From contig WAOD01000071.1 in NCBI GenBank assembly GCA_015521465.1, forward strand, positions 1 to 32,404: 32,404 bases of DNA, read 5' to 3'. This stretch comes from DHVE2 group archaeon. GTDB taxonomy: Archaea > Thermoplasmatota > Thermoplasmata > Thermoplasmatales > Aciduliprofundaceae. Positions 12,069 to 25,439 of this stretch are shown one piece after another (position 1 is the stretch's first letter; every line of letters begins with the position of its first letter). The translations under genes were made by a program, and so were the position numbers. The notes below the pieces were generated by a model, which saw nothing but the letters and a program-made list of their open reading frames with translations, was not told where the DNA came from and ran no database searches.

Positions 12069-12251
12069 CCTCCCTGCATCGCATTTTTCAAGATAATATT
12101 TTGCATTGGTGCTTTTGTATTATCAATTGCTTCTTTTTATTGCTCTCAATCACTTTAATTTTTTGTATTTATTTTAAATTTGGTACAATATAATTTCATA
12201 AATCAAAAGATTTTTACTCAATAGTGCGATTTACCCTAATCGGTGAGAAAC

Positions 12252-14114
12252 ATGCCCATGAGATATTTAAGGGAAAAATTATCAGATGAGCAATTCAAAA
12301 AATTGGAAAAATTGAAAAACGATGAACTGATGTGTTTTTTGGAGAAGTACATAGCTGTTTGCTCTCCATCATCGGTTTTCGTTGTTACCGATTCTGAAGA
12401 AGACGCGCTCTACGTGAGGAACAAGGCAATAATTGAGAGGGAAGAGAAGCTTCTTACCATGCCCGGCCACACGGTGCACTTTGATAATTACTATGACCAG
12501 GCTAGGGACAAGGAGCACACTTATGTTTTAACAGAAGATGGAAAAAAGTTACCTTACATAAAAACCATGGACAGGGAGAAGGGATTGCGAGAAATACACG
12601 AGATACTGCTTGATATCATGGAAGGAAAGGAGATGTACATCCTGTTCTTCTCTCTCGGGCCAAAGGATTCTCCATTTATGCTTCCTGCTGTTCAGATAAC
12701 CGATTCTCCTTACGTTGCCCACAGCGAATTAATGCTTTATCGCAGGGCTTATGATGAGTTTGTCAAAAATCCTGATATGGAGTTTCTTAAGTTCGTGCAT
12801 GCTGAGGGTAAACTGGACGAGAGGAGAACGAGTAAAAATTTGGATAAAAGACGCATTATGATTGATTTGGAAGATAATATAGCCTTTGCGGTTAACACGC
12901 AGTATGCGGGTAATACAATTGGTCTTAAAAAACCAGCTTTCAGGTTGACAATAAACAAAGCTCTCAAAGAAGGTTGGTTGAGCGAGCACATGTTTTTGAT
13001 GGGTGTGAACGGTCCCGATGGCAGGGTCTCTTATTTCACAGGTGCTTTTCCTTCCATGTGCGGAAAAACTTCAACATGTATGGTTGTTGGTGAGAGGTTG
13101 GTAGGGGATGACCTTTCATTCATAAGGGATATTGATGGAGAGGCAAGGGCAGTTAACGTCGAGTACGGTATTTTTGGCATAATTCAGGGTGTTAACAAGA
13201 AGGATGACCCTTACATATGGGAAGTATTGCACTCCCCTTACGAGATAATTTTCTCCAATGTGCTGGTTCACGAGGGCAAGCCATACTGGAACGATATGGG
13301 CGAGGAAATTCCCTGCGAGGGAGAGAACCACAGGGGGAAGTGGTGGTGTGGAAAGAAGGACGAGGATGGAAACGAGATACCTCCTAGTCATAAGAATGCA
13401 AGGTTCACTGCGAGATTAAAGTATTTTCCAAATCTGGATGCCGAAGCTCTTGACGCCAAGAACGGTGTTAAACTTGCAGGCATAATTTACGGTGGCCGAG
13501 ACTCTGATACTTGGCCCCCTGTTTGTGAGGCGTTTAACTGGGAGCACGGAGTTGTGATGAAAGGTGCGTCCATAGAATCAGAAACCACGGCGGCCACTCT
13601 TGGTAAGGAGGGTGTGAGAAAATACAACGTTATGTCAATACTTGATTTTCTTTCGGTGCATATCGGTGATTACCTTGATAATTATCTCAAATTCGGAAAG
13701 CAGCTCAGGAGTCATCCGAAGATTTTTGCGGTGAATTATTTCCTGCGAGACAAGGACGGAAACTGGCTAAATTCCAAGCTGGACAAGAAGATATGGCTCA
13801 AGTGGATGGATTTGAGGGTTCATGGCGAGGCAGGGACCATTGAGACGCCGATCGGGTATCTTCCAAAGTACGAAGACCTTGCACGCCTGTTCAAAGAGGT
13901 GTTTAACAAAGAATATACAAAGGAGGATTACGAGAAGCAGTTTACCATACGTGTTCCGGAGCTTTTGAGCAAGATAGGTAGAATAAGAAAGATATACTGG
14001 GACATGGGAGACGTGCCTGAAGAAGTTTTCAGGGAATTGGACGCGGAGGAAAAGCGGCTTTTAGATGCCCGGAAAAAGCACGGGGATTACATCTCTCCAT
14101 ACTCTTTCTACTGA
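12252..14114 (+). CDS. pckG: phosphoenolpyruvate carboxykinase (GTP)
   Basis: 620 residues of the GTP-dependent enzyme, which interconverts oxaloacetate and PEP (gluconeogenesis, or anaplerosis in reverse). The diagnostic P-loop with active-site cysteine is AFPSMCGKTSTCM; the metal/substrate segment is GDDLSFI; KGASIESETTAATLG and DYLDNYLKFG are typical of the family in archaea. ATG at 12252 is chosen because GGTGA lies six bases upstream (the in-frame GTG at 12243 is part of that site); ATG at 12258 is also possible. The 174 bases upstream, shared with divergent carS, are very A/T-rich and give no single convincing TATA box. A T8 run follows the stop. Confidence 0.96.
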   Translation: MPMRYLREKLSDEQFKKLEKLKNDELMCFLEKYIAVCSPSSVFVVTDSEEDALYVRNKAIIEREEKLLTMPGHTVHFDNYYDQARDKEHTYVLTEDGKKLPYIKTMDREKGLREIHEILLDIMEGKEMYILFFSLGPKDSPFMLPAVQITDSPYVAHSELMLYRRAYDEFVKNPDMEFLKFVHAEGKLDERRTSKNLDKRRIMIDLEDNIAFAVNTQYAGNTIGLKKPAFRLTINKALKEGWLSEHMFLMGVNGPDGRVSYFTGAFPSMCGKTSTCMVVGERLVGDDLSFIRDIDGEARAVNVEYGIFGIIQGVNKKDDPYIWEVLHSPYEIIFSNVLVHEGKPYWNDMGEEIPCEGENHRGKWWCGKKDEDGNEIPPSHKNARFTARLKYFPNLDAEALDAKNGVKLAGIIYGGRDSDTWPPVCEAFNWEHGVVMKGASIESETTAATLGKEGVRKYNVMSILDFLSVHIGDYLDNYLKFGKQLRSHPKIFAVNYFLRDKDGNWLNSKLDKKIWLKWMDLRVHGEAGTIETPIGYLPKYEDLARLFKEVFNKEYTKEDYEKQFTIRVPELLSKIGRIRKIYWDMGDVPEEVFRELDAEEKRLLDARKKHGDYISPYSFY

Positions 14115-14115
14115 G

Positions 14116-14123
14116 TTTTTTTT
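14116..14123 (+). terminator. T-run terminator after pckG
   Basis: Eight consecutive T directly after the stop codon, with further T-rich sequence to about 14140. Archaeal termination commonly uses such tracts without a hairpin. Confidence 0.5.
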
Positions 14124-14163
14124 GGATATTTTTGTTATTTGCATAGTGGTTCAAATCCAACCA

Positions 14164-14171
14164 TTAAATAC
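14164..14171 (+). promoter_or_regulatory. TATA box of the broken H-NOX-like gene
   Basis: TTAAATAC lies about 25 bases before the ATG at 14192. That ATG begins MLGLLFNH, the expected N-terminus of an H-NOX-like protein, so the box supports 14192 as the original leaderless start. Confidence 0.5.
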
Positions 14172-14191
14172 AGTTATTTCCTTTTATTTTT

Positions 14192-14723
14192 ATGTTAGGT
14201 CTATTGTTTAACCATGGTTGTTGAGTCTGTCAGGAAAAAGAAAGGCACTTCTGGTGTGGAAAGTTTGAGAAGGAATATGGTTCTGAGTTAAAATTTTTGA
14301 ATCAAAAGCAATACGATGACGAATATTTTTTAAAGTTGATAAATGCTGCGATGATTTATGGGAATAACCTTCCGGGAAAATTTTAAGAGAGAGCTTGCCA
14401 GGGTTATTTTTAATATAATTGTGGGTATATTTAGTGTAATAATTAGGCGTTATCCTGATGCTTTTTCTCTCCTTTCAAATATAGAAAAGATTCACGGGTC
14501 AATAGCAATGATGCAGGATAAAAAGCGGATTAGTTTTATCGTGCGTGATGCTGATGCCAAGTATGTTAGGTTGATATATGACTCGCCAACAAAGCTTGAT
14601 TTCTTTTTTGACCAGTTTATTTTAGAAACCGCAAAATACTACGGCGAGAGTGTGAAAAGAGAATACTTATCCAGGATGAGCGAGGGCGCTAAAAGTACGT
14701 TGGTTTCGGTATGGCTCTCGTAA
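14192..14723 (+). pseudogene. frameshifted H-NOX / heme-NO-binding-like gene
   Basis: No single frame covers the gene, but consecutive pieces join into a ~175-residue H-NOX-like protein, the family's length. The pieces are MLGLLFNH (from ATG 14192), MVVESVRKKKGTSGVES (14214 on, other frame), then GSELKFLNQKQYDDEYFLKL (back in the first frame, to 14386), then an intact 121-codon frame from 14358 to 14723. The last part holds RRYPDAFSLL, NIEKIHGSI, whose His sits where H-NOX has the proximal heme ligand, and YDSPT in place of the YxSxR heme-propionate motif, so the Arg is lost. Breaks must fall within 14199-14221, 14225-14288 and 14355-14383. It could be decayed, or translated only from 14358 as a short remnant; sequencing error is possible. 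Recognition is by eye from pattern, without alignment software. Confidence 0.6.
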
Positions 14724-14744
14724 ATGGGTAATTTGTGCGTATAT

Positions 14745-14752
14745 TTTATATA
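14745..14752 (+). promoter_or_regulatory. TATA box of the FN3/Kelch secreted-protein gene
   Basis: TTTATATA about 38 bases before the ATG at 14787. The implied leader of roughly 12 bases contains the ribosome site AAGGTG, six bases from the ATG. Confidence 0.7.
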
Positions 14753-14786
14753 CTCAAAATTAATAGCTTAGTAGAAGGTGTTTCAA

Positions 14787-17700
14787 ATGTTATCATGGGT
14801 GGGTACTAAATGGGCTGTTGTGCTCTTGCTGGGTGTGATGGTGTCTTCTGGAGTTTATATGGGATTTTCACATAATGAGCAGTTCTCGCAGAGGTCACAG
14901 GCAAAGGTGCTGTTTGACTTTACAAAGGATGAGGATGCGGGGAATGCGGACTGGCGCATAGATGGTGCGTATTCTTCTTTTGCACATGCCCTTAAAAATG
15001 CAGGTTTTTCCGTGGGGGAGATAGGCACTGGTCACGGTACCATAACTTCTCAGGAACTTCAGGGTTGCAAGGTCCTTATAATCCCTGAGCCTCAGGACAA
15101 GTTCACCAGTTCTGAACGAAGTGCAATTTTGAATTTTGTGAGCAATGGTGGCAGTTTGATTTATATTGCAGATCACCCCGGCTCGGATAGGAATCACAAT
15201 GGGTATTCCTCGTGGAAGATATGGAATAATAATTTGAATTTTGATTCTGTATTTGGTATAACTCTCCTTTCCACAGAATCAGGAAAGAACGGACACAAGA
15301 TAACCGATATTGAAAATGTTCCTGTTTTGACGGACGGGGTAAGTGCTTTTGGAATGTGGGAAGGCGCCACGATGAGTGTTAGTGGCAATGCGAAGGCTGT
15401 GGCATATCAGAACATTGGGGGTGTGAATTACGCTGTGATGGCCTATACATATTACGGTTCAGGCAAGGTAATTGTATTCGGTGATTCTTCAACCTTTGAT
15501 GACGGAACTCCAGATAGCGCGAATCACCACGATAACGTGTACGATGGCTGGTCCAAGTACAACGATGCTACTCTGGGTATTGACATGGTAAGGTGGGCAT
15601 CACAGAGCTCAAGCAATTCTTCCTCCAACGTGCTTGGAGCACCTCAGAATTTAGCTGCAGTTAGCGGAAATGGTTATGTCAAGCTTACGTGGAACTCTCC
15701 TGCCACTGGCAATGCTACCTGGCACTATGCAACCAACACGTCTTTTGATGGTGGCTACGGTGAGGCTATGGCGTGGGATGGACATTATATTTACATATTA
15801 AGGCAGAAGGATAGTAAATCGACACCTATGTTTTATAGGTACGACCCGCAAACCGGTACATGGACAGATTTGAGTTCAGGATTGCCAAATGTGCCCTTTG
15901 AAAACGGGGTGGCCATGGCTTATGATTACCACGGGCACATTTACGTGCTCACTGGCGGCTCTTACCGGAGCAATGGCGACCGTGTGTATTTCTATATGTA
16001 CACAATTTCTTCAAACACGTGGACCCGGCTTGCAGATGCCCCCCATGTTGAAGGTCCGGGGGATGCCATAGTTTATTCTGGTTATGACCATATGATTTAC
16101 GCTTTTCTTGGTCGCGCACATTATATTGGCTCATATAATCCTGGATCTTACAGCATATTTGCGAGGTACGATCCCTCTACGGACACTTGGGAAAAACTGT
16201 CTTTTCCGTCATGGTGGCCTGATGAAGGTACAGATGATGGTGCATCACTTGCCTGGACTGGGGGGAGATACATATACGGGCTTGAGGGTGAGTTTTACGA
16301 GAATTCACCACTCCGGGGTTTTGCACGTTACGATATTGTAACAAATAAGTGGGTAAAGATGCAGGATATCCCCGATCCCGAAGGAGTGGGGGATGGTGGC
16401 TCATTGATATGGCTTGGACATTACTATCCCTCTTTATCCAACGTTATTTTTGCTTTGGGTGGTAATGGATGCAATGAAACTCCTGGATACTATTTCTTTG
16501 AATACAATATCCCAACAAATACATGGATTCACCTTCCGGATATTCCTTACCCTGTGGGTGATTTTGTAGGAAATAGATTGGGTTATGCGGATGGAAAAAT
16601 ATTTTACTGGCAAGGTACACCAAACACGTGGAATGGGGGCGGAAAAAGAATTTATTATTACCCTGTGCCAGTCAGTTCTGGTAGCAATGTGAGTGAGTAT
16701 CGCATATATCGTGGAACAAGTAGTGAGGGAGAAACATACCTTGCGGAGGTAAACGGCACATCATTATCGTATACAGACCGCTCTGTAACTAATGGCGTAA
16801 CTTATTATTACTACGTGACTGCTGTAAATTCAGCCGGAGAAAGCGATAAAAGTAACGAAGTTTCTGCCACGCCTCATAAGAGTATGGCTCAGAAACTGAT
16901 TCTATTTGTGGACGATGATGGGGGCAAGAGTTACAGCAATTATGTTCAGGAAGCCATAAGTGATTCTGGATATTCTTTCGACACTTGGGATGTTAATGCT
17001 AAGGGCTATCCCTCTTTCTCTGATTTCCAGAACTATCGGGTGGTTGTATGGACAACTGGCTCTATGTGGAGAGACGTGCTTAATTCGGAGGAGCAAAGTG
17101 CTCTGGAAAAGTACCTGAACGATGGGGGCAAACTGTACATTAGCTCTCAGGATCTCCTCTGGGACTTGAACGATGGCAATGATGGAAACATAAACAACAA
17201 TTTTGTGAGTAATTATTTAGGGGTTTCCGGGGTGAAGAATGATCAGGATTATAAGAATGTATATGGAGTAAGCAATGACCCAATAACGTCCTCTTTCTCC
17301 AAGATAATCCTTAAGTTCCCGTTCACCAATTACGCTGATGAAATAACCCCGGGGTACGGGAGCGGAATTTTCACCGATGCTAACGGTAATTATGTTGCAT
17401 CTCGCTACGATTCAGGTACTTTCAGAACGGTTTTCACGGCATTTCCTTTCGAGGCAGTGGAACTTGAAAACAGCGATACCGGCGCAGAACTTATGAAGAG
17501 CATTATTACTTGGCTTCTCAATGGAAGCGCTTCCGATAATAACGTTTCAGTTCCGGGTGCTCCACTTGACCTGAGGGCGACAGGCGGTAATGGCGAAGTG
17601 CACTTGGAGTGGAATCCTCCTGACGAGAACGGAGGTTCTGTAATAACAGGGTATCGTATATATCGTGGTACCAATAGCGGGGGAGAAACATACCTTGAGG

Positions 17701-18503
17701 AGGTAAACGGCTCTGCATTATCGTATACTGATCGCTCTGTAACCAATGGAGTAACCTATTATTACTATGTGACCGCTGTGAATTCAGCCGGAGAAAGCGA
17801 GAAGAGTAACGAAGCAAATGCAACACCCAGCGCAACCATGGGGCTTTTGTCCAACAAGATACTGTTTGTGGACGATGACGATGGTAGTATTTACAGCGAG
17901 TATGTGGAAGATGCTCTCAACAATTCTTACATAAAGAGTAGATTTGAGGTTTATGAGTGGGATGTGTACCAGATTGGAAGAACACCCACTTATAAAGAGC
18001 TGGAAGAATACGGCATAGTGGTTTGGAGCACTGGTTATGCGTATAAGGACACTTTGACTGAAGATGACCAGGATAACTTGATTAAGTACCTTAACGCTGG
18101 CGGAAGGTTGTATTTGACATCACAGGATTTCCTCTGGGAAGTTTCTGATGGATATGATGGTGGGGTGTACAATAATTTTGTAAATGATTACCTGGGAGTT
18201 ATCGGTGTGACCAACGATGTGGGCTACAACAAGGTTTACGGGGTTAGTGGTGATCCGATAACAGGAAACCTTGCACCTGTTCCTTTGCAGTATCCTTTCC
18301 ACAACTACGATGATAGAATACAGATAGCAAGCGGTGCCCACGCGATATTCAAGGATAGCAAGGGCTATGCAGTTGGAGACAGATACTCTTCCGGGAATTT
18401 CAGGGTGGTATTCACAGCGTTTTCATTTGAGGCTATTGACAAGTACGATTCGGAGAACGGAATAATGGTAATGAATCACATCATCTCATGGCTTGCGAGT
18501 TAA
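14787..18503 (+). CDS. secreted multidomain protein: GATase-like domains, FN3 domains and an inserted Kelch propeller
   Basis: 1238 residues, beginning with a signal/anchor helix (WAVVLLLGVMVSSGVYMGF). Domains: (1) GATase/DUF4350-like fold, about 35-275 (ILNFVSNGGSLIYIADH); (2) first half of an FN3 domain from about 284 (APQNLAAVSGNGYVKLTWNS); (3) Kelch-like repeats, about 309-632, each ending in a D/N-x-W strand (YDPQTGTWTDL, SSNTWTRL, YDPSTDTWEKL, VTNKWVKM, IPTNTWIHL); (4) second half of the same FN3 (EYRIYRGT...YYYYVTAVNSAGES), about 636-695; (5) ILFVDDDGG GATase-like domain, about 703-910; (6) intact FN3, about 925-1014; (7) second ILFVDDDDG domain to the end. No catalytic triad is evident. 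Probably an extracellular or wall-associated binding protein; function unknown. Start ATG 14787 has AAGGTG upstream. Confidence 0.85.
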   Translation: MLSWVGTKWAVVLLLGVMVSSGVYMGFSHNEQFSQRSQAKVLFDFTKDEDAGNADWRIDGAYSSFAHALKNAGFSVGEIGTGHGTITSQELQGCKVLIIPEPQDKFTSSERSAILNFVSNGGSLIYIADHPGSDRNHNGYSSWKIWNNNLNFDSVFGITLLSTESGKNGHKITDIENVPVLTDGVSAFGMWEGATMSVSGNAKAVAYQNIGGVNYAVMAYTYYGSGKVIVFGDSSTFDDGTPDSANHHDNVYDGWSKYNDATLGIDMVRWASQSSSNSSSNVLGAPQNLAAVSGNGYVKLTWNSPATGNATWHYATNTSFDGGYGEAMAWDGHYIYILRQKDSKSTPMFYRYDPQTGTWTDLSSGLPNVPFENGVAMAYDYHGHIYVLTGGSYRSNGDRVYFYMYTISSNTWTRLADAPHVEGPGDAIVYSGYDHMIYAFLGRAHYIGSYNPGSYSIFARYDPSTDTWEKLSFPSWWPDEGTDDGASLAWTGGRYIYGLEGEFYENSPLRGFARYDIVTNKWVKMQDIPDPEGVGDGGSLIWLGHYYPSLSNVIFALGGNGCNETPGYYFFEYNIPTNTWIHLPDIPYPVGDFVGNRLGYADGKIFYWQGTPNTWNGGGKRIYYYPVPVSSGSNVSEYRIYRGTSSEGETYLAEVNGTSLSYTDRSVTNGVTYYYYVTAVNSAGESDKSNEVSATPHKSMAQKLILFVDDDGGKSYSNYVQEAISDSGYSFDTWDVNAKGYPSFSDFQNYRVVVWTTGSMWRDVLNSEEQSALEKYLNDGGKLYISSQDLLWDLNDGNDGNINNNFVSNYLGVSGVKNDQDYKNVYGVSNDPITSSFSKIILKFPFTNYADEITPGYGSGIFTDANGNYVASRYDSGTFRTVFTAFPFEAVELENSDTGAELMKSIITWLLNGSASDNNVSVPGAPLDLRATGGNGEVHLEWNPPDENGGSVITGYRIYRGTNSGGETYLEEVNGSALSYTDRSVTNGVTYYYYVTAVNSAGESEKSNEANATPSATMGLLSNKILFVDDDDGSIYSEYVEDALNNSYIKSRFEVYEWDVYQIGRTPTYKELEEYGIVVWSTGYAYKDTLTEDDQDNLIKYLNAGGRLYLTSQDFLWEVSDGYDGGVYNNFVNDYLGVIGVTNDVGYNKVYGVSGDPITGNLAPVPLQYPFHNYDDRIQIASGAHAIFKDSKGYAVGDRYSSGNFRVVFTAFSFEAIDKYDSENGIMVMNHIISWLAS
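16698..16859 (+). repeat. FN3 coding repeat, copy A
   Basis: Codes for the C-terminal half of the interrupted FN3 domain. By hand count it differs from copy B (17652-17813) at about 20 of 162 bases, mostly third codon positions, with no indels, so the two halves were duplicated or gene-converted. Confidence 0.85.
17652..17813 (+). repeat. FN3 coding repeat, copy B
   Basis: Copy of 16698-16859 within the uninterrupted FN3 domain of the same gene. The amino acid stretch NGVTYYYYVTAVNSAGES is identical in both. Confidence 0.85.
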
Positions 18504-19197: not shown

Positions 19198-19620
19198 TCA
19201 TTTCACCCTTTCCATTATTATTGCCGGGCACAGATCCCTGACTCCTCTAACCTTGCCCACTTTTTTAGACAAAAACTCAAAAAGTGCCTCTCCGTTTTCG
19301 CTCCACACCTCGCACATTATCATGTGATCTCCCGAAGATGTGGCAACCCACTTTACTTCTTCAAACTCCGCTATTTTTCTTGCCGCTTCCAAAAGGTATT
19401 TGGGCTCAACATCCAGTCCCAGTATCGTTACTGTTTTATATCCTAATTTTTCAGGATCCACCTCTATTGTAAATTTTTTAATGACTCCTTCTTTTTCTAA
19501 TTCGTTTATTCTTTTTCTTATTGTTGCCTCTGTTAAATTCATTTTTTTAGCTATTTCTGTGTAAGGTGTTCTTGAATTTTGAAGTAATATCTCAATTATT
19601 TTTCTGTCTTTATCGTCCAT
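19198..19620 (-). CDS. Lrp/AsnC-family transcriptional regulator
   Basis: 140 residues, the normal length. The N-terminal helix-turn-helix is MDDKDRKIIEILLQNSRTPY...IAKKMNLTEATIRKRINELEKEGVI. The C-terminal RAM effector domain (KTVTILGLDVEPKYLLEAARKIAEFEEVKWV) ends in a strand that helps form dimers and octamers. Such proteins often regulate the neighbouring divergent gene and themselves; here that neighbour is the flavin reductase heading the oxygen-defence cluster. TTTATTAA about 31 bases upstream on the minus strand could be its TATA box, giving a nearly leaderless mRNA. Effector unknown. Confidence 0.93.
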   Translation of the reverse strand: MDDKDRKIIEILLQNSRTPYTEIAKKMNLTEATIRKRINELEKEGVIKKFTIEVDPEKLGYKTVTILGLDVEPKYLLEAARKIAEFEEVKWVATSSGDHMIMCEVWSENGEALFEFLSKKVGKVRGVRDLCPAIIMERVK

Positions 19621-19655
19621 TAATCAAAGGTAATACAGCATGTTTAATAAAGTTT

Positions 19656-19706
19656 TTCGAAAAGATTATTTGCAAAATTCGAACTAAAAATTTATATATG
19701 TCGAAC
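19656..19706. promoter_or_regulatory. three phased TTCGAA-type sites in the divergent lrp / flavin reductase promoter
   Basis: TTCGAA at 19656-19661 and 19678-19683 and the near match GTCGAA (in TGTCGAACA) at 19700-19705 have centres exactly 22 bp apart (19658.5, 19680.5, 19702.5). The third site adjoins the flavin reductase TATA box, and the first lies just upstream of the likely lrp TATA box. The spacing of about two helical turns puts all three on one DNA face, as expected for a multimeric regulator such as Lrp. Binding by the neighbouring Lrp is inference. Confidence 0.5.
19691..19698 (+). promoter_or_regulatory. TATA box of the flavin reductase gene
   Basis: TTTATATA centred 27 bases before the ATG at 19722; no ribosome site precedes that ATG, so the message is probably leaderless. 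This argues against the in-frame ATG at 19698, which lies in the box itself. Confidence 0.75.
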
Positions 19707-19721
19707 ATATTACCTGTGTTG

Positions 19722-20240
19722 ATGGGAAGTGTAAAAGATGTATTGCACAGCATAAATTACGGTATGTATGTTGTTTCCTCTAAAAAAGGAGATAAAATAA
19801 ACGGACAGGTGGTAAATACTGTATTTCAGATAACACCTGTGCCGGTAACCATTGCCACAAGTATAAATAAAGATAACTTAACTCATGAGTTTATAAATTC
19901 AAGCGGAGTGTTTACAGTATCTATTTTGTCAAAGGATGCTCCTTTCAAGCTAATAGGCCTTTTTGGCTTTCGCTCAGGTCGGGATGTTGATAAGTTTTCT
20001 CAGGTTGATTATGGTATTGGGGATAATGGTGCTCCGTATTTGAGAGAACACGCTGTAGCTTATCTTGAGGCAAAGGTAATCAAAAAAGAGGAATTGTTTA
20101 CCCACACTATTTTCATCGGGGAGGTAATTGGTGGGAAAATGCTCACTGGGGGGGAACCAATGACTTATGATTATTATCATAATGATATTAAGGGGAAAAC
20201 ACCCAAAAATGCAGCCACTTATTCAGGGGGTGGTTTGTGA
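19722..20240 (+). CDS. FMN-binding flavin reductase-like protein (Hrb-type)
   Basis: 172 residues of the split-barrel flavin reductase fold. The sequence pattern INYGMYVVSSKKGDKINGQ, NTVFQITPVPVTIA, HEFINSSGVFTVSILS, GLFGFRSGRDVDKF and THTIFIGEV...GEPMTYDYYH matches, from memory of the family, the flavin reductase half of high-molecular-weight rubredoxin (Hrb) of Moorella and relatives, where NADH reduces FMN and passes electrons to the fused rubredoxin and then FprA. Here the rubredoxin is a separate gene 110 bases downstream, followed by FprA, so the same electron route is likely with split components. ATG 19722 is chosen from the TATA box position and because the family match begins there. 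Confidence 0.85.
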   Translation: MGSVKDVLHSINYGMYVVSSKKGDKINGQVVNTVFQITPVPVTIATSINKDNLTHEFINSSGVFTVSILSKDAPFKLIGLFGFRSGRDVDKFSQVDYGIGDNGAPYLREHAVAYLEAKVIKKEELFTHTIFIGEVIGGKMLTGGEPMTYDYYHNDIKGKTPKNAATYSGGGL

Positions 20241-20269
20241 TGTTTGCTGGAATTTTCATTTTTAGGTTG

Positions 20270-20277
20270 TTTATATC
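20270..20277 (+). promoter_or_regulatory. TATA box before rubredoxin
   Basis: TTTATATC lies about 77 bases before the rubredoxin ATG, giving an untranslated leader of around 50 bases. The leader contains an imperfect inverted repeat (GGAAATC at 20290-20296 and GATTTTCC at 20303-20310), a possible operator or small hairpin. This would allow the rubredoxin-to-peroxiredoxin genes to be driven separately from the flavin reductase. Confidence 0.5.
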
Positions 20278-20350
20278 TTATGATTGTGGGGAAATCGATG
20301 GGGATTTTCCTTTGATAACATGTGAAACTGTGTTAAAAGGAGGTGTTTAA

Positions 20351-20512
20351 ATGAAGTATAGGTGTACAATATGTGGGTATATATATGACCCTGAAGTCGG
20401 AGATCCGGACAGCGAGATTCCTGCTGGCACACCATTTGAGGATCTTCCAGAGGAATGGGTTTGTCCCGTGTGCGGAGCTTCGAAGGATCTCTTTGAGCCG
20501 GTGGAGGATTGA
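20351..20512 (+). CDS. rubredoxin
   Basis: 53 residues with the two iron-binding knuckles CTICGY (C5, C8) and CPVCGA (C38, C41) and the conserved aromatic residues YRC and EEWVCP. Rubredoxin is a one-electron carrier; it feeds FprA-type oxidases, rubrerythrin and superoxide reductase, all encoded just downstream. The start has an excellent ribosome site, AGGAGGTG, seven bases from the ATG. The stop is two bases before the FprA start codon, so the two are translationally coupled. Confidence 0.97.
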
Positions 20513-20514
20513 AA

Positions 20515-21699
20515 ATGATAAGAAAAATAGCGGATGGAGTTTACAACGTAGGAGCGATAGACTGGGAACGGACGCTCTTCGATGAAATAGTCTCTACGCC
20601 ACAGGGAACCAGTTACAACTCGTATTTGGTGGAAGGCAATGAAAAAACCGCATTGATTGATACAGTAGAACCGGAGAAGGTGGAGCAACTTTTGGCGAAC
20701 CTGGAAGAATTGAATGTGAAAAAAATTGATTACATCGTTTCCAACCATGCTGAGCAGGACCATTCCGGAGCGATACCTGTTCTACTTGAGAAATATCCCG
20801 GTGCAAAGGTTGTTACAAATGCAAAGTGCAAAGGGTTCGAGATGGATCTTCTTCCTCTTGAGGATGAGGATTTCATCGTAATCAAAGAAGGAGATACTCT
20901 TGATCTCGGAGGAAAAACGCTGAAGTTCATAATGACTCCGTGGGTTCACTGGCCTGAAACAATGACCACATTCTTGGTGGAAGATAAAATTGCGTTCACC
21001 TGCGACTTCTTCGGGTCGCACGCGGCTACAACGCATGCTTTTGCGGAGCAGTACGATAGGATATATCATGAGGCTAAGAGATATTACGCGGAAATCATGA
21101 TGCCATTCAGGCAGATAATAACGAGGAACATAAAGAAAATAGAAGAATTGGGGCCGAGGATAATCGCTCCGAGCCACGGACCCGCTTACAAAGAGCCCAA
21201 ATACATAATTGATGCATACAAAGAGTGGATATCCGAGAAGACGAAGAACGAAGTCCTAATTCTATACGTGTCCATGCACGGAAGCACAAAGAAAATGGTT
21301 GACGCTTTAGTGGATTACTTGGGTGAAGAGGGTGTGGAAGTGAAGGTTCGAGATCTTATACACTCAGACATGGGCGAAATAGCGATAGATTTAGTTGATG
21401 TTACCACTTTGGTTTTAGCGACTCCAACCATGCTCGCTGGGCCGCACCCCAATGCGGTTTATGCGGCGTACATTGCCAATGCGCTGAAGCCGAAGGTGAA
21501 AATTGTGGGGATCATGGGCTCCTACGGCTGGGGTGGAAGAACAGTGGACATACTGAAGAGCAATCTCGGCGCGTTGAAGGTGGAGCTTCTTGAGCCTCTG
21601 TTAATAAAGGGGATACCCAAGGAAGAGGATTATGAGAAGATAAAAAAATTCGCAAAGACAATCGCGGAGAAGCACCGTGAGATAGGGGTGATGAAATGA
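20515..21699 (+). CDS. fprA: A-type diiron flavoprotein (FprA / rubredoxin:oxygen oxidoreductase)
   Basis: 394 residues: an N-terminal metallo-beta-lactamase-like diiron domain and a C-terminal flavodoxin domain from about 245 (VLILYVSMHGSTKKM). All iron ligands of the family are present: H78, E80, D82 and H83 in NHAEQDH, H145 in WVHWPE, D164 in TCDFFGS and H221 in PSHGPAY. The enzyme reduces O2 to water, or NO to N2O, without releasing radicals. In methanogens the donor is coenzyme F420; here the coupled rubredoxin gene argues for rubredoxin. ATG 20515 has GGAGG seven bases upstream. It overlaps the next gene by four bases. Confidence 0.96.
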   Translation: MIRKIADGVYNVGAIDWERTLFDEIVSTPQGTSYNSYLVEGNEKTALIDTVEPEKVEQLLANLEELNVKKIDYIVSNHAEQDHSGAIPVLLEKYPGAKVVTNAKCKGFEMDLLPLEDEDFIVIKEGDTLDLGGKTLKFIMTPWVHWPETMTTFLVEDKIAFTCDFFGSHAATTHAFAEQYDRIYHEAKRYYAEIMMPFRQIITRNIKKIEELGPRIIAPSHGPAYKEPKYIIDAYKEWISEKTKNEVLILYVSMHGSTKKMVDALVDYLGEEGVEVKVRDLIHSDMGEIAIDLVDVTTLVLATPTMLAGPHPNAVYAAYIANALKPKVKIVGIMGSYGWGGRTVDILKSNLGALKVELLEPLLIKGIPKEEDYEKIKKFAKTIAEKHREIGVMK

Positions 21700-22169
21700 A
21701 GCCTGGAGATGAGGCGGTGGATTTTTGTCTTCCGGATTACGAGGGCAAGGAGCACTGCCTGCACGATTTCCGGGGAAAATGGATCGTTCTTTACTTCTAC
21801 CCCAAGGACAACACATCCGGCTGCACGAGAGAGGCGAAGGAATTCACGGAGATGAAGGATAAGTTCGAAAAATTAAACGCAGTGATAATAGGGGTAAGCA
21901 AAGATTCACCCAAGAGCCATGCTAAGTTTATAGAAAAGCACGGTTTAAAAATACTGCTTTTGAGCGATGAGAACCACGAAATATTAGAGAAGTACGGTGC
22001 CTGGGGTAAGAAGAAAAGTTACGGAAAGGAATACTTCGGGACTATAAGGAGCACCTTTCTTATCGATCCCGAGGGAAAAATCGTGCACGTTTGGCCAAAG
22101 GTTCGGGTGAGCGGGCATGTTGAGAAAGTTCTGAAAAAACTTGAGGAGGTGATTGAGAATGGATATTGA
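21696..22169 (+). CDS. PrxQ/BCP-type peroxiredoxin without the usual resolving cysteine
   Basis: 157 residues, normal for PrxQ. The peroxidatic cysteine is C43 in NTSGCTREAKEF. Bacterial BCP often has the resolving cysteine five residues later; here that position is Lys48. The only other cysteines are C11 and C21 near the N-terminus, so it either works as a one-Cys enzyme reduced by an external partner or uses one of those unusual positions. It removes H2O2 and organic peroxides in the cytosol. ATGA overlap with fprA indicates co-translation. Confidence 0.93.
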   Translation: MKPGDEAVDFCLPDYEGKEHCLHDFRGKWIVLYFYPKDNTSGCTREAKEFTEMKDKFEKLNAVIIGVSKDSPKSHAKFIEKHGLKILLLSDENHEILEKYGAWGKKKSYGKEYFGTIRSTFLIDPEGKIVHVWPKVRVSGHVEKVLKKLEEVIENGY

Positions 22170-22647
22170 AAAATACAATCTGAAAACGTTGCTTCTTGCA
22201 GCTATAAAAAGTGAGATAGATAGCAAGAAATTGTACGAAGATTTGGCGGGGCGAGTTAAGAACATGATGTTCAAGGACCGCCTTCTGTTTTTAGCGAACG
22301 AGGAGGAGAAGCACAGGGCATATCTGGAAGCGCTTTACAGGAAAAAGTTTCCTAATGAGGAATTGGTGGTTCCGGAGCACACGCCGGTGCCTCTGCCTGG
22401 AGTGGATGGAAGCGAGGATAGATTACTAAGCGAGATCATCGAAGATGCCATGAAAGCGGAACTGGCGGCAAAGGATTTCTACGAAAGCATGAAGGATTTG
22501 CTTCATGACGATGAGAACAAGAAGATGCTTCAAATCCTGGCGAATATGGAGCTGGGTCACTATGATTTGCTTGCCAGGGAGCTTGAAAATCTGAAAAATT
22601 TTGAAGATTATGATACATACTGGCCTATGATGCATGCAGGGCCATAA
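22159..22647 (+). CDS. rubrerythrin-like ferritin-fold protein lacking the rubredoxin domain
   Basis: 162 residues predicted as a four-helix bundle. Two half-repeats carry diiron motifs: AIKSEIDSKKLYEDL with NEEEKHRAYLEAL, and DAMKAELAAKDFYESM with NMELGHYDLL (E...ExxH twice). There are no Cys-x-x-Cys pairs, so it must take electrons from a separate rubredoxin such as the one at the head of the operon. Peroxide reduction or iron handling is the likely role. ATG 22159 has GGAGGTG upstream and overlaps the preceding gene by 11 bases. Confidence 0.88.
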   Translation: MDIEKYNLKTLLLAAIKSEIDSKKLYEDLAGRVKNMMFKDRLLFLANEEEKHRAYLEALYRKKFPNEELVVPEHTPVPLPGVDGSEDRLLSEIIEDAMKAELAAKDFYESMKDLLHDDENKKMLQILANMELGHYDLLARELENLKNFEDYDTYWPMMHAGP

Positions 22648-22657
22648 GGTGAAAAAT

Positions 22658-22849
22658 ATGAAAGGAAAAGCAATCTTAATAAAAATAATAGACTTTGAGA
22701 GCGATTTAGAGTTTGTAAATAAAAGTGATGAATTTGAGGCAGATGCAGTGTATGCAGAGCCTATTGATTTGGAGGAGCTTTGTGATATAATATCTGGATT
22801 GATAGAAGATTCGGAAATGAAATTGGCTAAAAAGAAGGTGAAAAAATGA
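22658..22849 (+). CDS. 63-residue protein of unknown function within the oxygen-defence operon
   Basis: The start at ATG 22658 has AAGGTG upstream, and the stop overlaps the rubrerythrin start by four bases (ATGA), so it is very probably translated. The sequence starts with a beta-like strand ([10 protein letters not shown]), then an acidic middle ([21 protein letters not shown], shown here as its two parts [10 protein letters not shown] and [11 protein letters not shown]) and a basic end (KLAKKKVKK). A single cysteine lies in the acidic helix. No family recognised. Position suggests a helper of rubrerythrin or the diiron proteins; that is inference. Confidence 0.75.
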
Positions 22850-23352
22850 GAAAGATGGTTGAGAAAAGTTTGGAAGAAGCGTTTGCGGGCGAGAGCATGG
22901 CGCATATGAAATACACAATATTTGCAGAAGTGGCGGAGAAGGAGGGAAAGAAGAATATTGCACGATTATTCAGGGCGATAGCGTACGCGGAATTCGTTCA
23001 TGCGAAGAATCACGCTAGGAATTTAGGTTACATAAAGAGCACGGAGGAGAATCTAAAGACTGCAATAGGCGGAGAAACATTTGAAGTTGAGGATATGTAT
23101 CCTGCGTATCTTGAGCTAGCAAAGTACTTTGAAGAGAAAGGCGCAGAGCGCTCGTTCCACTACGCAATAGAGGCAGAGAAAATTCACGCAGAGCTATACA
23201 GCGAGGCAAAGAAAAAAGCCGAAAATAACGAAGATATAGAAGAGGAAGACATCTACATATGCCCTGTGTGCGGATACACATATATGGGTGAGGAGCCGCC
23301 GGAGAAGTGTCCGGTTTGCGGAGCTCCTCGCGAAAAATTTGAGAAGTTCTAA
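22846..23352 (+). CDS. rbr: rubrerythrin
   Basis: 168 residues. The N-terminal four-helix diiron domain has the ligand pattern [27 protein letters not shown], ...[14 protein letters not shown] and [12 protein letters not shown]-terminal rubredoxin-like domain holds CPVCGY and [11 protein letters not shown]. Rubrerythrin reduces H2O2 to water with electrons from rubredoxin/NAD(P)H. Its length is slightly under the ~190 of classical rubrerythrins, typical of archaeal forms. It overlaps the small upstream gene (ATGA) and is 12 bases from ferritin. Confidence 0.96.
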
Positions 23353-23364
23353 GGAGGTGAAAAA

Positions 23365-23880
23365 ATGATAGATAAGGAAATAGAAGAAGCGATAAACAAA
23401 CAGATAAATGAAGAACTCTACTCGTCGTACCTGTATCTTTCGATGTCGGCGTACTTTGAAAACATAGGATTAAGAGGTTTCGCCAACTGGATGTACGTGC
23501 AGTACCAGGAGGAGAAGGATCACGCTATGAAGTTCTACCGGTATTTAATTGAGCGAGGGGGCCGTGTAAAGCTCTACGCTATTAACGAACCGCCTCACGA
23601 ATGGGACTCGCCATTGCACGCTTTTGAAGAGACTCTAAAGCATGAAAAGCACATAACCCAGTGCATAAACGAGCTTGTTGATTTGGCGGAGAAAAAGAAG
23701 GACAGGGCGACTTTTAATTTGCTCCAGTGGTATGTTGATGAGCAGGTTGAAGAGGAGGCAAATGACGAGGAAATTATACAGATGCTGAAGATGATCGGTA
23801 ACCAGGGGCATGGCTTGCTCATGCTGGATCGTGAGCTTGCCACGAGAACTTACACTCCCCTTGTGAATGAAGGAACATAA
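23365..23880 (+). CDS. ftn: ferritin (FTN type, non-heme)
   Basis: 171 residues of a cage-forming iron-storage protein. The ferroxidase ligands are visible in NEELYSSYLYLSM and YQEEKDHAMKF (ExxH), with further Glu in HAFEETLKHE and EQVEEEANDEE. Storing Fe(III) limits Fenton reactions, matching the peroxide-removing neighbours. A strong AAGGAGGTGA ribosome site lies five bases before the ATG. No heme-binding Met typical of bacterioferritin was identified at the dimer interface. Confidence 0.96.
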   Translation: MIDKEIEEAINKQINEELYSSYLYLSMSAYFENIGLRGFANWMYVQYQEEKDHAMKFYRYLIERGGRVKLYAINEPPHEWDSPLHAFEETLKHEKHITQCINELVDLAEKKKDRATFNLLQWYVDEQVEEEANDEEIIQMLKMIGNQGHGLLMLDRELATRTYTPLVNEGT

Positions 23881-23896
23881 AAGGAGGTGATTAAAA

Positions 23897-24244
23897 ATGT
23901 TGAGTGAAACCATAAAGAGTGGAGACTGGAAAGGAGAGAAGCACGTGCCTGTGATAGAGTACAGAAAGGACGGAGAGATGATAGAGGTGGAAGTGGCCGT
24001 GGGCAAAGAAGTGCCGCATCCGAACACGCCAGAGCATCACATAGCGTGGATTGAACTGTATTTCAAGCCAGAGGACGGACAATTCCCAATTTTAATAGGC
24101 AGGGTGGATTTCAGCAATCACAGCGAGCCACTAACAGAGCCCAGAGCAAAGTTCTATTTCAAAGCTGGAAAGAAAGGAAAATTGATGGCGCTTAGTTACT
24201 GCAACATACACGGGCTCTGGCAGAACGAAGTTGACATGGAGTGA
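23897..24244 (+). CDS. sor: superoxide reductase (neelaredoxin type)
   Basis: 115 residues with only the catalytic iron centre (1Fe-SOR). Ligands are in the expected places: E14 and H16 in GEKHVP, H41 and H47 in PHPNTPEHHIAWIE, and C102 and H105 in SYCNIHGLW. The reaction is reduction of superoxide to H2O2 without making O2, with rubredoxin as usual donor. The N-terminal desulforedoxin domain of desulfoferrodoxins is absent. A strong ribosome site AAGGAGGTGA precedes the start. Confidence 0.97.
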   Translation: MLSETIKSGDWKGEKHVPVIEYRKDGEMIEVEVAVGKEVPHPNTPEHHIAWIELYFKPEDGQFPILIGRVDFSNHSEPLTEPRAKFYFKAGKKGKLMALSYCNIHGLWQNEVDME

Positions 24245-24249
24245 AAATA

Positions 24250-24756
24250 ATGAAGGCAGTGTACATAGACAAAAAGAGCTATCAAATAGGAGGAATTCTT
24301 CTTCTTATTTTGGGTATTATAGGCATGATTATCCCGGAATTTGCCACGGGCATGATACTGGTGATGTTGGCAGCGCTTCTGATATTGGGCGGAATAATGT
24401 TCTTCATAGCAGGGTTCAAAGGTGGCTGGTTAAACTATTTGCTTGGGATATTGCTTTTGATAGTGGGTATACTGATGCTGGTATATCCCTCAGCGACTCT
24501 ATCAACAATGACATTCATTCTGGGCGCATGGTTTATACTTATGGGAATCATTGAATCCGTGTTTGCGTTTGCAGTCAAGTCAGAGTACAGTGGCTGGTGG
24601 TCTCCCTTGGTTACTGGCATACTCTCTTTCATACTCGGTATCCTGGTATTCGCTGGATGGCCGGGCAATTCTACTTGGATAATTGGCCTGTTCGTGGCAA
24701 TAGAACTGTTCTTTGATGGAATAATGCTCCTCGTGCTAAGTGCTTACGGGGAGTAA
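24250..24756 (+). CDS. HdeD-like (DUF308) membrane protein
   Basis: 168 residues with six hydrophobic helices arranged as three similar pairs, e.g. [40 protein letters not shown] and [17 protein letters not shown]. The recurring LGI-x-G-x-hydrophobic-P pattern is typical of HdeD/DUF308 proteins, linked to acid resistance in enterobacteria but of unknown biochemical role. It sits five bases after superoxide reductase and before the last peroxiredoxin, so it belongs to the oxygen-defence operon. ATG 24250 has GGAG upstream; GTG at 24241 would overlap the sor stop. Confidence 0.8.
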
Positions 24757-24797
24757 GAAAAAATAAAATAGAATTTGAAAAAAAGGAGGTGAAAAAA

Positions 24798-25439
24798 ATG
24801 GTAGTAATAGGAGAGAAGTTTCCGGAAGTGGAAGTAAATACGACGCACGGACGAATGAAATTGCCCGACCAATTTGCGGGCAAGTGGTTTGTTTTATTCT
24901 CGCATCCGGCGGATTTCACGCCAGTGTGCACGACAGAGTTCTATGCAATGCAGAAAAGACTGGAAAAGTTCAAAGAGCTGGGTGTTGAAGTGATCGGACT
25001 GAGCGTGGACCAGGTCTTCTCGCATCTGAAATGGATGGAATGGATTAAGGACAATCTCAACGAGGAGATACAGTTCCCCGTTATAGCGGACGACCGCGGA
25101 GACCTTGCAGAGATGCTTGGCATGATTCCCACTGGTTCCACGCAGACTGCCAGGGCAGTGTTCATTGTCGATCCCAAGGGCACCATTAGAGCAATCGTGT
25201 ATTATCCCGCAGAGCTTGGCCGCGATTGGGATGAGATTCTGCGGGCAGTGAAGGGTCTGCAGGTAAGCGATGCAAATGGCGTGGCTATGCCGCATAAGTG
25301 GCCTGATAACGAATTAATTAAAGATCGTGTCATCGTGCCCCCAGCTGGAAGCGTGGATGCAATAAAGGACAGAGAAGAGAGAAAGAAGAAGGGTGAGATT
25401 GAGTGCTACGACTGGTGGCTCTGCCACAGGTCTCTCTAA
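24798..25439 (+). CDS. peroxiredoxin, archaeal Prx6/AhpC-TSA type
   Basis: 213 residues. Peroxidatic C44 lies in [14 protein letters not shown]203 and C209 in CYDWWLC have the same six-residue spacing as the C-terminal cysteine pair of Aeropyrum thiol peroxidase, so a two- or three-cysteine cycle is likely. The long C-terminal domain ([21 protein letters not shown]) places it in the decameric Prx6-like group. It removes H2O2 and alkyl peroxides. The start is set by AAGGAGGTGA upstream. It ends the oxygen-defence operon. Confidence 0.96.

Follow-up and report, generated by a model that had tools for sequence, protein, structure and literature searches.

The stretch at positions 14192 to 14723 of the window (the whole 32,404-nucleotide stretch of DNA analyzed here, part of a deep-sea-vent archaeon's 1.51-Mb genome of 108 contigs [G000], a single MAG) is very probably a pseudogene, the broken form of a gene for a stand-alone H-NOX protein specific to this lineage. 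Its frame is broken relative to an intact ortholog, and the constraint on it is relaxed. The ortholog, of 177 codons, lies on contig C37 of the closest sister genome (G015), at the same position between the genes for GTP-dependent phosphoenolpyruvate carboxykinase (PEPCK) and a large surface protein, within a 17-kb syntenic block of 89.4% nucleotide identity. The related contigs carry the names of DHVE2-group archaea, a clade within Thermoplasmatota that includes Aciduliprofundum. In bacteria and animals, from which H-NOX domains have mainly been described, this fold serves as a sensor of nitric oxide. Our literature search found no paper pairing H-NOX with Thermoplasmat-. The frames in window positions 14100 to 14780 were read directly, and the features are as follows.

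12243 to 14114, + strand: PEPCK gene, upstream neighbor, same in the sister genome; clean 623-codon frame (named from sequence)
14165 to 14172, + strand: TTAAATAC, TATA-box-like element about 20 to 27 bases 5' of the ATG, also in the sister genome; putative promoter element of the H-NOX gene
14192 to 14723, + strand: stand-alone H-NOX (HNOB) pseudogene, intact counterpart of 177 codons (Pfam HNOB matches; base-level alignment to contig C37 of G015)
14192 to 14212, + strand: N-terminal piece MLGLLFN, intact; the frame meets TGA after MLGLLFNHGC, ten codons (frame reading)
14212 to 14213, + strand: frame change 1, an extra C relative to the sister (alignment to the sister ortholog)
14214 to 14271, + strand: second piece, in the +1 frame, VVESVRKKKGTSGVESLRR (frame reading, alignment to the sister)
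14271 to 14272, + strand: frame change 2, a G fewer than in the sister, GGG to GG (alignment to the sister ortholog)
14272 to 14354, + strand: third piece, back in the first frame, EYGSELKFLNQKQYDDEYFLKLINAAM (frame reading, alignment to the sister)
14354 to 14360, + strand: frame change 3, a gap of three bases after 14354 and an additional base near 14360, net -2 (alignment to the sister)
14358 to 14723, + strand: open 121-codon frame from the ATG at 14358 to the TAA at 14721 to 14723, encoding the remainder of the distal subdomain and all of the proximal one, with the His (NIEKIHGSI) and YDSPT (frame list, HNOB match)
14778 to 18503, + strand: large surface protein with kelch/FN3-like repeats, downstream neighbor, same in the sister genome; clean 1241-codon frame (named from sequence)

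An earlier note on this DNA had read the locus as pieces in alternating frames, from MLGLLFNH onward, that are joined by three frame changes. Direct frame reading recovered all of the pieces, and base-level alignment to the intact sister ortholog resolved four indels with three net frame changes, which the windows given in the note bracket or adjoin. The sister locus carries the intact syntenic ortholog, not a 121-codon frame with unrelated upstream sequence.

The presence of an H-NOX-like gene in an archaeon, as the note had proposed, was borne out by both profile and structure comparisons. The joined protein matched Pfam HNOB (PF07700) from profile position 2 to 160 with 45.9 bits (E = 7.2e-12), above the curated cutoff of 25.5 bits, as did the open 121-amino-acid tail alone (27.6 bits; E = 3.2e-6). 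All eight intact relatives matched HNOB at an E value of ≤0.01 (best, 1.6e-19), and a profile built from them matched the Shewanella H-NOX structure 2kii over its full length (E = 7.6e-19). The histidine of NIEKIHGSI (His102), which had been assigned to the proximal heme-ligand position, aligns with the heme ligand His103 of 2kii; the same column holds Gly in the H103G entry 2kil. An AlphaFold model of the intact sister protein had a pLDDT of 92.2 and a pTM of 0.86, and all of its Foldseek matches to solved structures at an E value of ≤0.001 were H-NOX domains (best TM-scores, 0.80 to 0.85). The model thus predicts an H-NOX fold with high confidence. An NCBIfam search with the window protein found no family, and an Rfam search over the window locus found no RNA element. 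When the window's own genome was scanned with the HNOB profile, neither the broken copy nor an intact paralog came up, although a protein query found both, so low counts from profiles alone do not amount to absence. HNOB matches of about 255 to 297 amino acids across the order were discarded as false positives, as they resemble (by eye) translation initiation factor aIF2-alpha.

The heme-contact motifs are altered throughout the genus. His102, Tyr130, and Ser132 are invariant in the ten intact genus copies, and the Arg of YxSxR is replaced by Thr or Asn in every one of them (followed by Lys in nine). The earlier note had reported YDSP without the Arg. The residue is indeed replaced, by Thr, in the window, but since Arg is absent from all ten intact copies across the DHVE2 clade, its loss there was inherited and is not a sign of decay. 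The Pro aligned with Shewanella oneidensis (So) Pro116 is likewise missing from all ten. The first hinge Gly is present in one copy of ten and the second, whose position was placed by a numbering offset from PMC7108781, in two; no copy has both. The roles of this Pro in heme bending and of the glycines as hinges were assigned from the H-NOX literature and numbering offsets (PMC7108781, PMC8738867). The Zn ligands are also absent from the ten copies, in which the positions of So C139, C164, and C172 hold D, K/R/M/T, and T, respectively. Three canonical Thermoplasmatota copies (L065, L066, and L067) keep the YxSxR Arg, the Pro, and both hinge glycines; these HNOB copies come from three other genomes of the phylum, MAGs that are possibly contaminated. 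The genus copies group as a single clade in the protein tree (99/99), separate from the three canonical copies, with long branches limiting its rooting against them.

ALAD, porphobilinogen deaminase (PBGD), and cytochrome bd were each found in none of the 18 family genomes, compared to 10 to 11 positives among 14 control genomes. These results suggest that the family genomes lack de novo tetrapyrrole synthesis, in which case heme would be scavenged or something else would be bound. A heme-synthase-like radical SAM match fell below the curated cutoff; given how long it is and that it occurs in anaerobic archaea, it is probably the lipid enzyme Gms (PMC11186832) and not AhbD. The absence of ALAD failed to tell variant H-NOX from canonical H-NOX, as ALAD was not detected either in those genomes of the phylum whose copies carry the canonical YxSxR motif. 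Because these genomes share the lack and heme may be scavenged, the missing ALAD and PBGD do not prove that the proteins are heme free.

The intact DHVE2 copies could nevertheless be heme-free pseudo-H-NOX proteins that bind another ligand, a possible though rather unlikely reading that is compatible with a pseudogene in the window. The replaced Arg, the missing Pro, and the never-complete pair of hinge glycines all point that way, as do the three markers not found in the family genomes and the heme-free precedent of the soluble guanylate cyclase (sGC) alpha H-NOX (PMC8196705). The invariance of His102, Tyr130, and Ser132 argues against it, as does the possibility of scavenging heme. Canonical copies also occur in genomes without detectable ALAD, so missing synthesis is not peculiar to the variant. 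Somewhat more doubtful is the proposal that the genus clade has changed its cofactor or ligand, retaining the His while losing the Arg, the Pro, at least one hinge glycine, and the Zn site in genomes with no detectable tetrapyrrole synthesis. If true, these archaea would use the clade to sense something else than NO bound to heme. The earlier note's NO/O2 sensor stands as an H-NOX family member, but NO/O2 sensing itself is only putative, with no partner gene recognized and no heme-synthesis marker found; the DHVE2 proteins may act as sensors of some kind.

Substitution patterns at the broken locus indicate relaxed constraint. Compared with the sister, dN/dS was 0.26 for the assembled pieces of the broken copy and 0.40 for its tail, against 0.01 to 0.15 for eleven neighboring genes, 0.13 for the intact H-NOX paralog pair, and 0.08 for another intact ortholog pair. 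The ratio of nonsynonymous (N) to synonymous (S) differences in the broken copy departed from that in the pooled neighbors (P = 7e-5) and in PEPCK (P = 2e-4) but, compared to the short intact paralog pair, not significantly for the whole gene (P = 0.23) and only for the first 60 tail codons (P = 0.012), all by post hoc Fisher tests with substitutions counted over both branches and the 60-codon cut picked by eye. The first 60 tail codons hold 17 N to 6 S differences, which is near neutral, versus 2 N and 6 S in the little-changed last 60. This last part could be read as remaining constraint, a point against a pseudogene; the identity between the two genomes runs on from the tail end past the stop into the TATA-like, promoter-like element of the next gene.

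It is very unlikely that the living organism has an intact gene and that the indels arose as artifacts of sequencing or assembly. The genome is one MAG in 108 contigs, analyzed here from its assembly, the second change falls in a homopolymer (GGG versus GG), and individual indels could still be errors. Against this, four indels fall within 150 bases while the long flanking frames are clean, and amino acid changes are concentrated on the broken copy, with a protein tree branch of 0.11 compared to 0.034 for its sister (0.030 and 0.027 in the intact paralog pair) and a dN/dS above those of the neighbors. Of the sites that differ between the window and the sister, 10 have the sister residue as the more common one among relatives, 4 have the window residue, and 7 are ties. 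Since substitutions are also raised on the broken branch, we favor decay over a few miscalled bases.

Slightly less probable still is a functional 121-amino-acid protein that starts at the ATG at 14358 and keeps the ligand-side subdomain with the His and YxS: its frame is open, exceeds the HNOB cutoff alone, and ends in 60 little-changed codons, but its first half is close to neutral, it would, according to the model, lack the N-terminal helix and the one that follows in the distal subdomain (most of that subdomain), and a short form occurs in no relative, all ten intact copies being full length. The earlier note had listed this shortened product beside a recently lost sensor and assembly errors. 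What we observed is a broken gene whose syntenic ortholog in the sister is intact; the family itself has not been lost.

The H-NOX family is present in seven of the eight genus genomes, with three copies in G015. The window's genome keeps one intact, constrained paralog on contig C47 beside the broken copy and therefore still has the family. A third paralog is absent from its SAHH locus (L086, contig C84), where about 180 bases correspond to about 690 in G015 (L034, 10101 to 10791). The best explanation is that G000 is not losing the family but reducing it from as many as three copies, and the breakage of one copy suggests that at least one paralog is dispensable. No H-NOX-like frame followed PEPCK in the five other genus genomes with readable sequence there, G011, G014, G012, G013, and G010 (about 280 and 440 bases were read in G012 and G013, respectively), and the position after PEPCK appears specific to the G000/G015 pair.

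An adjacent partner gene (histidine kinase, cyclase, or chemoreceptor [MCP]) is frequent for H-NOX, without strictly defining it. We recognized no such gene beside any of the H-NOX copies, whose neighbors were named by eye from sequence and include PEPCK and the surface protein, radical SAM and ileS, SAHH, and an SRP RNA/FtsZ region. At L037, 2383 to 2695, the G012 copy lies next to the gene for the archaeal SRP RNA (194.6 bits against Rfam RF01857), and a long open frame over this RNA gene in G012 and G014 was set aside as spurious. In the window, positions 19566 to 25439, 5 to 11 kb downstream of the broken copy, hold genes for flavin reductase, flavodiiron protein, peroxiredoxins, rubrerythrin, and ferritin-like and superoxide-reductase-type (desulfoferrodoxin domain) proteins. 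This is an anaerobe's oxygen- and peroxide-defense set. Within it, the flavodiiron and PrxQ-like genes at 20509 to 22166 show a synonymous divergence from the sister of 1.4 to 2.9, compared to 0.23 to 0.56 in the preceding genes, as if the stretch had been exchanged by recombination.

The intact protein would function as a two-subdomain H-NOX fold, with the distal helices on one side and the proximal subdomain on the other of a ligand that is most simply scavenged heme on His102. A conformational change would then be passed to a partner protein, with the ligand, partner, and output all presumed by analogy. At the G000 locus, on this reading, the indels cut translation short after about 10 codons, and the rest of the frame is drifting. 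The genus offers a vent-archaeal family in which the heme-ligand His never varies, the propionate motif is consistently altered, and no partner gene was recognized, a defined set for testing whether the fold works without the usual heme contacts.

Among known systems, V4R/TRAPPC3-type domains and archaeal MetOD1 have a distantly related fold; TRAPPC3 (6aq3), the nearest non-H-NOX fold in Foldseek, matched the sister model far more weakly than H-NOX domains did (TM-score, 0.46). The H-NOX of Vibrio cholerae is a heme-free redox sensor that works through Zn-bound cysteines (PMC7108781). It shares the fold and sets a precedent for function without heme, but none of its Zn-binding cysteines are conserved in the DHVE2 copies. 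The sGC alpha-subunit H-NOX, a heme-free pseudo-H-NOX (PMC8196705), also combines the fold with a partly missing heme signature; unlike the DHVE2 copies, the human alpha protein lacks the ligand His and is fused to a cyclase. Compared with Shewanella oneidensis SO2144 (PDB 2kii/4u9b), the DHVE2 copies have Thr or Asn for the Arg, lack the Zn ligands (Cys/His), the heme-bending Pro, and, in each case, one or both hinge glycines, and have no recognized kinase or cyclase neighbor, and the window copy is frameshifted. The two nonetheless share a full-length profile match, the fold (TM-score, 0.83 to 0.85), the ligand histidine (His103 corresponding to His102), YxS, and a single-domain architecture.
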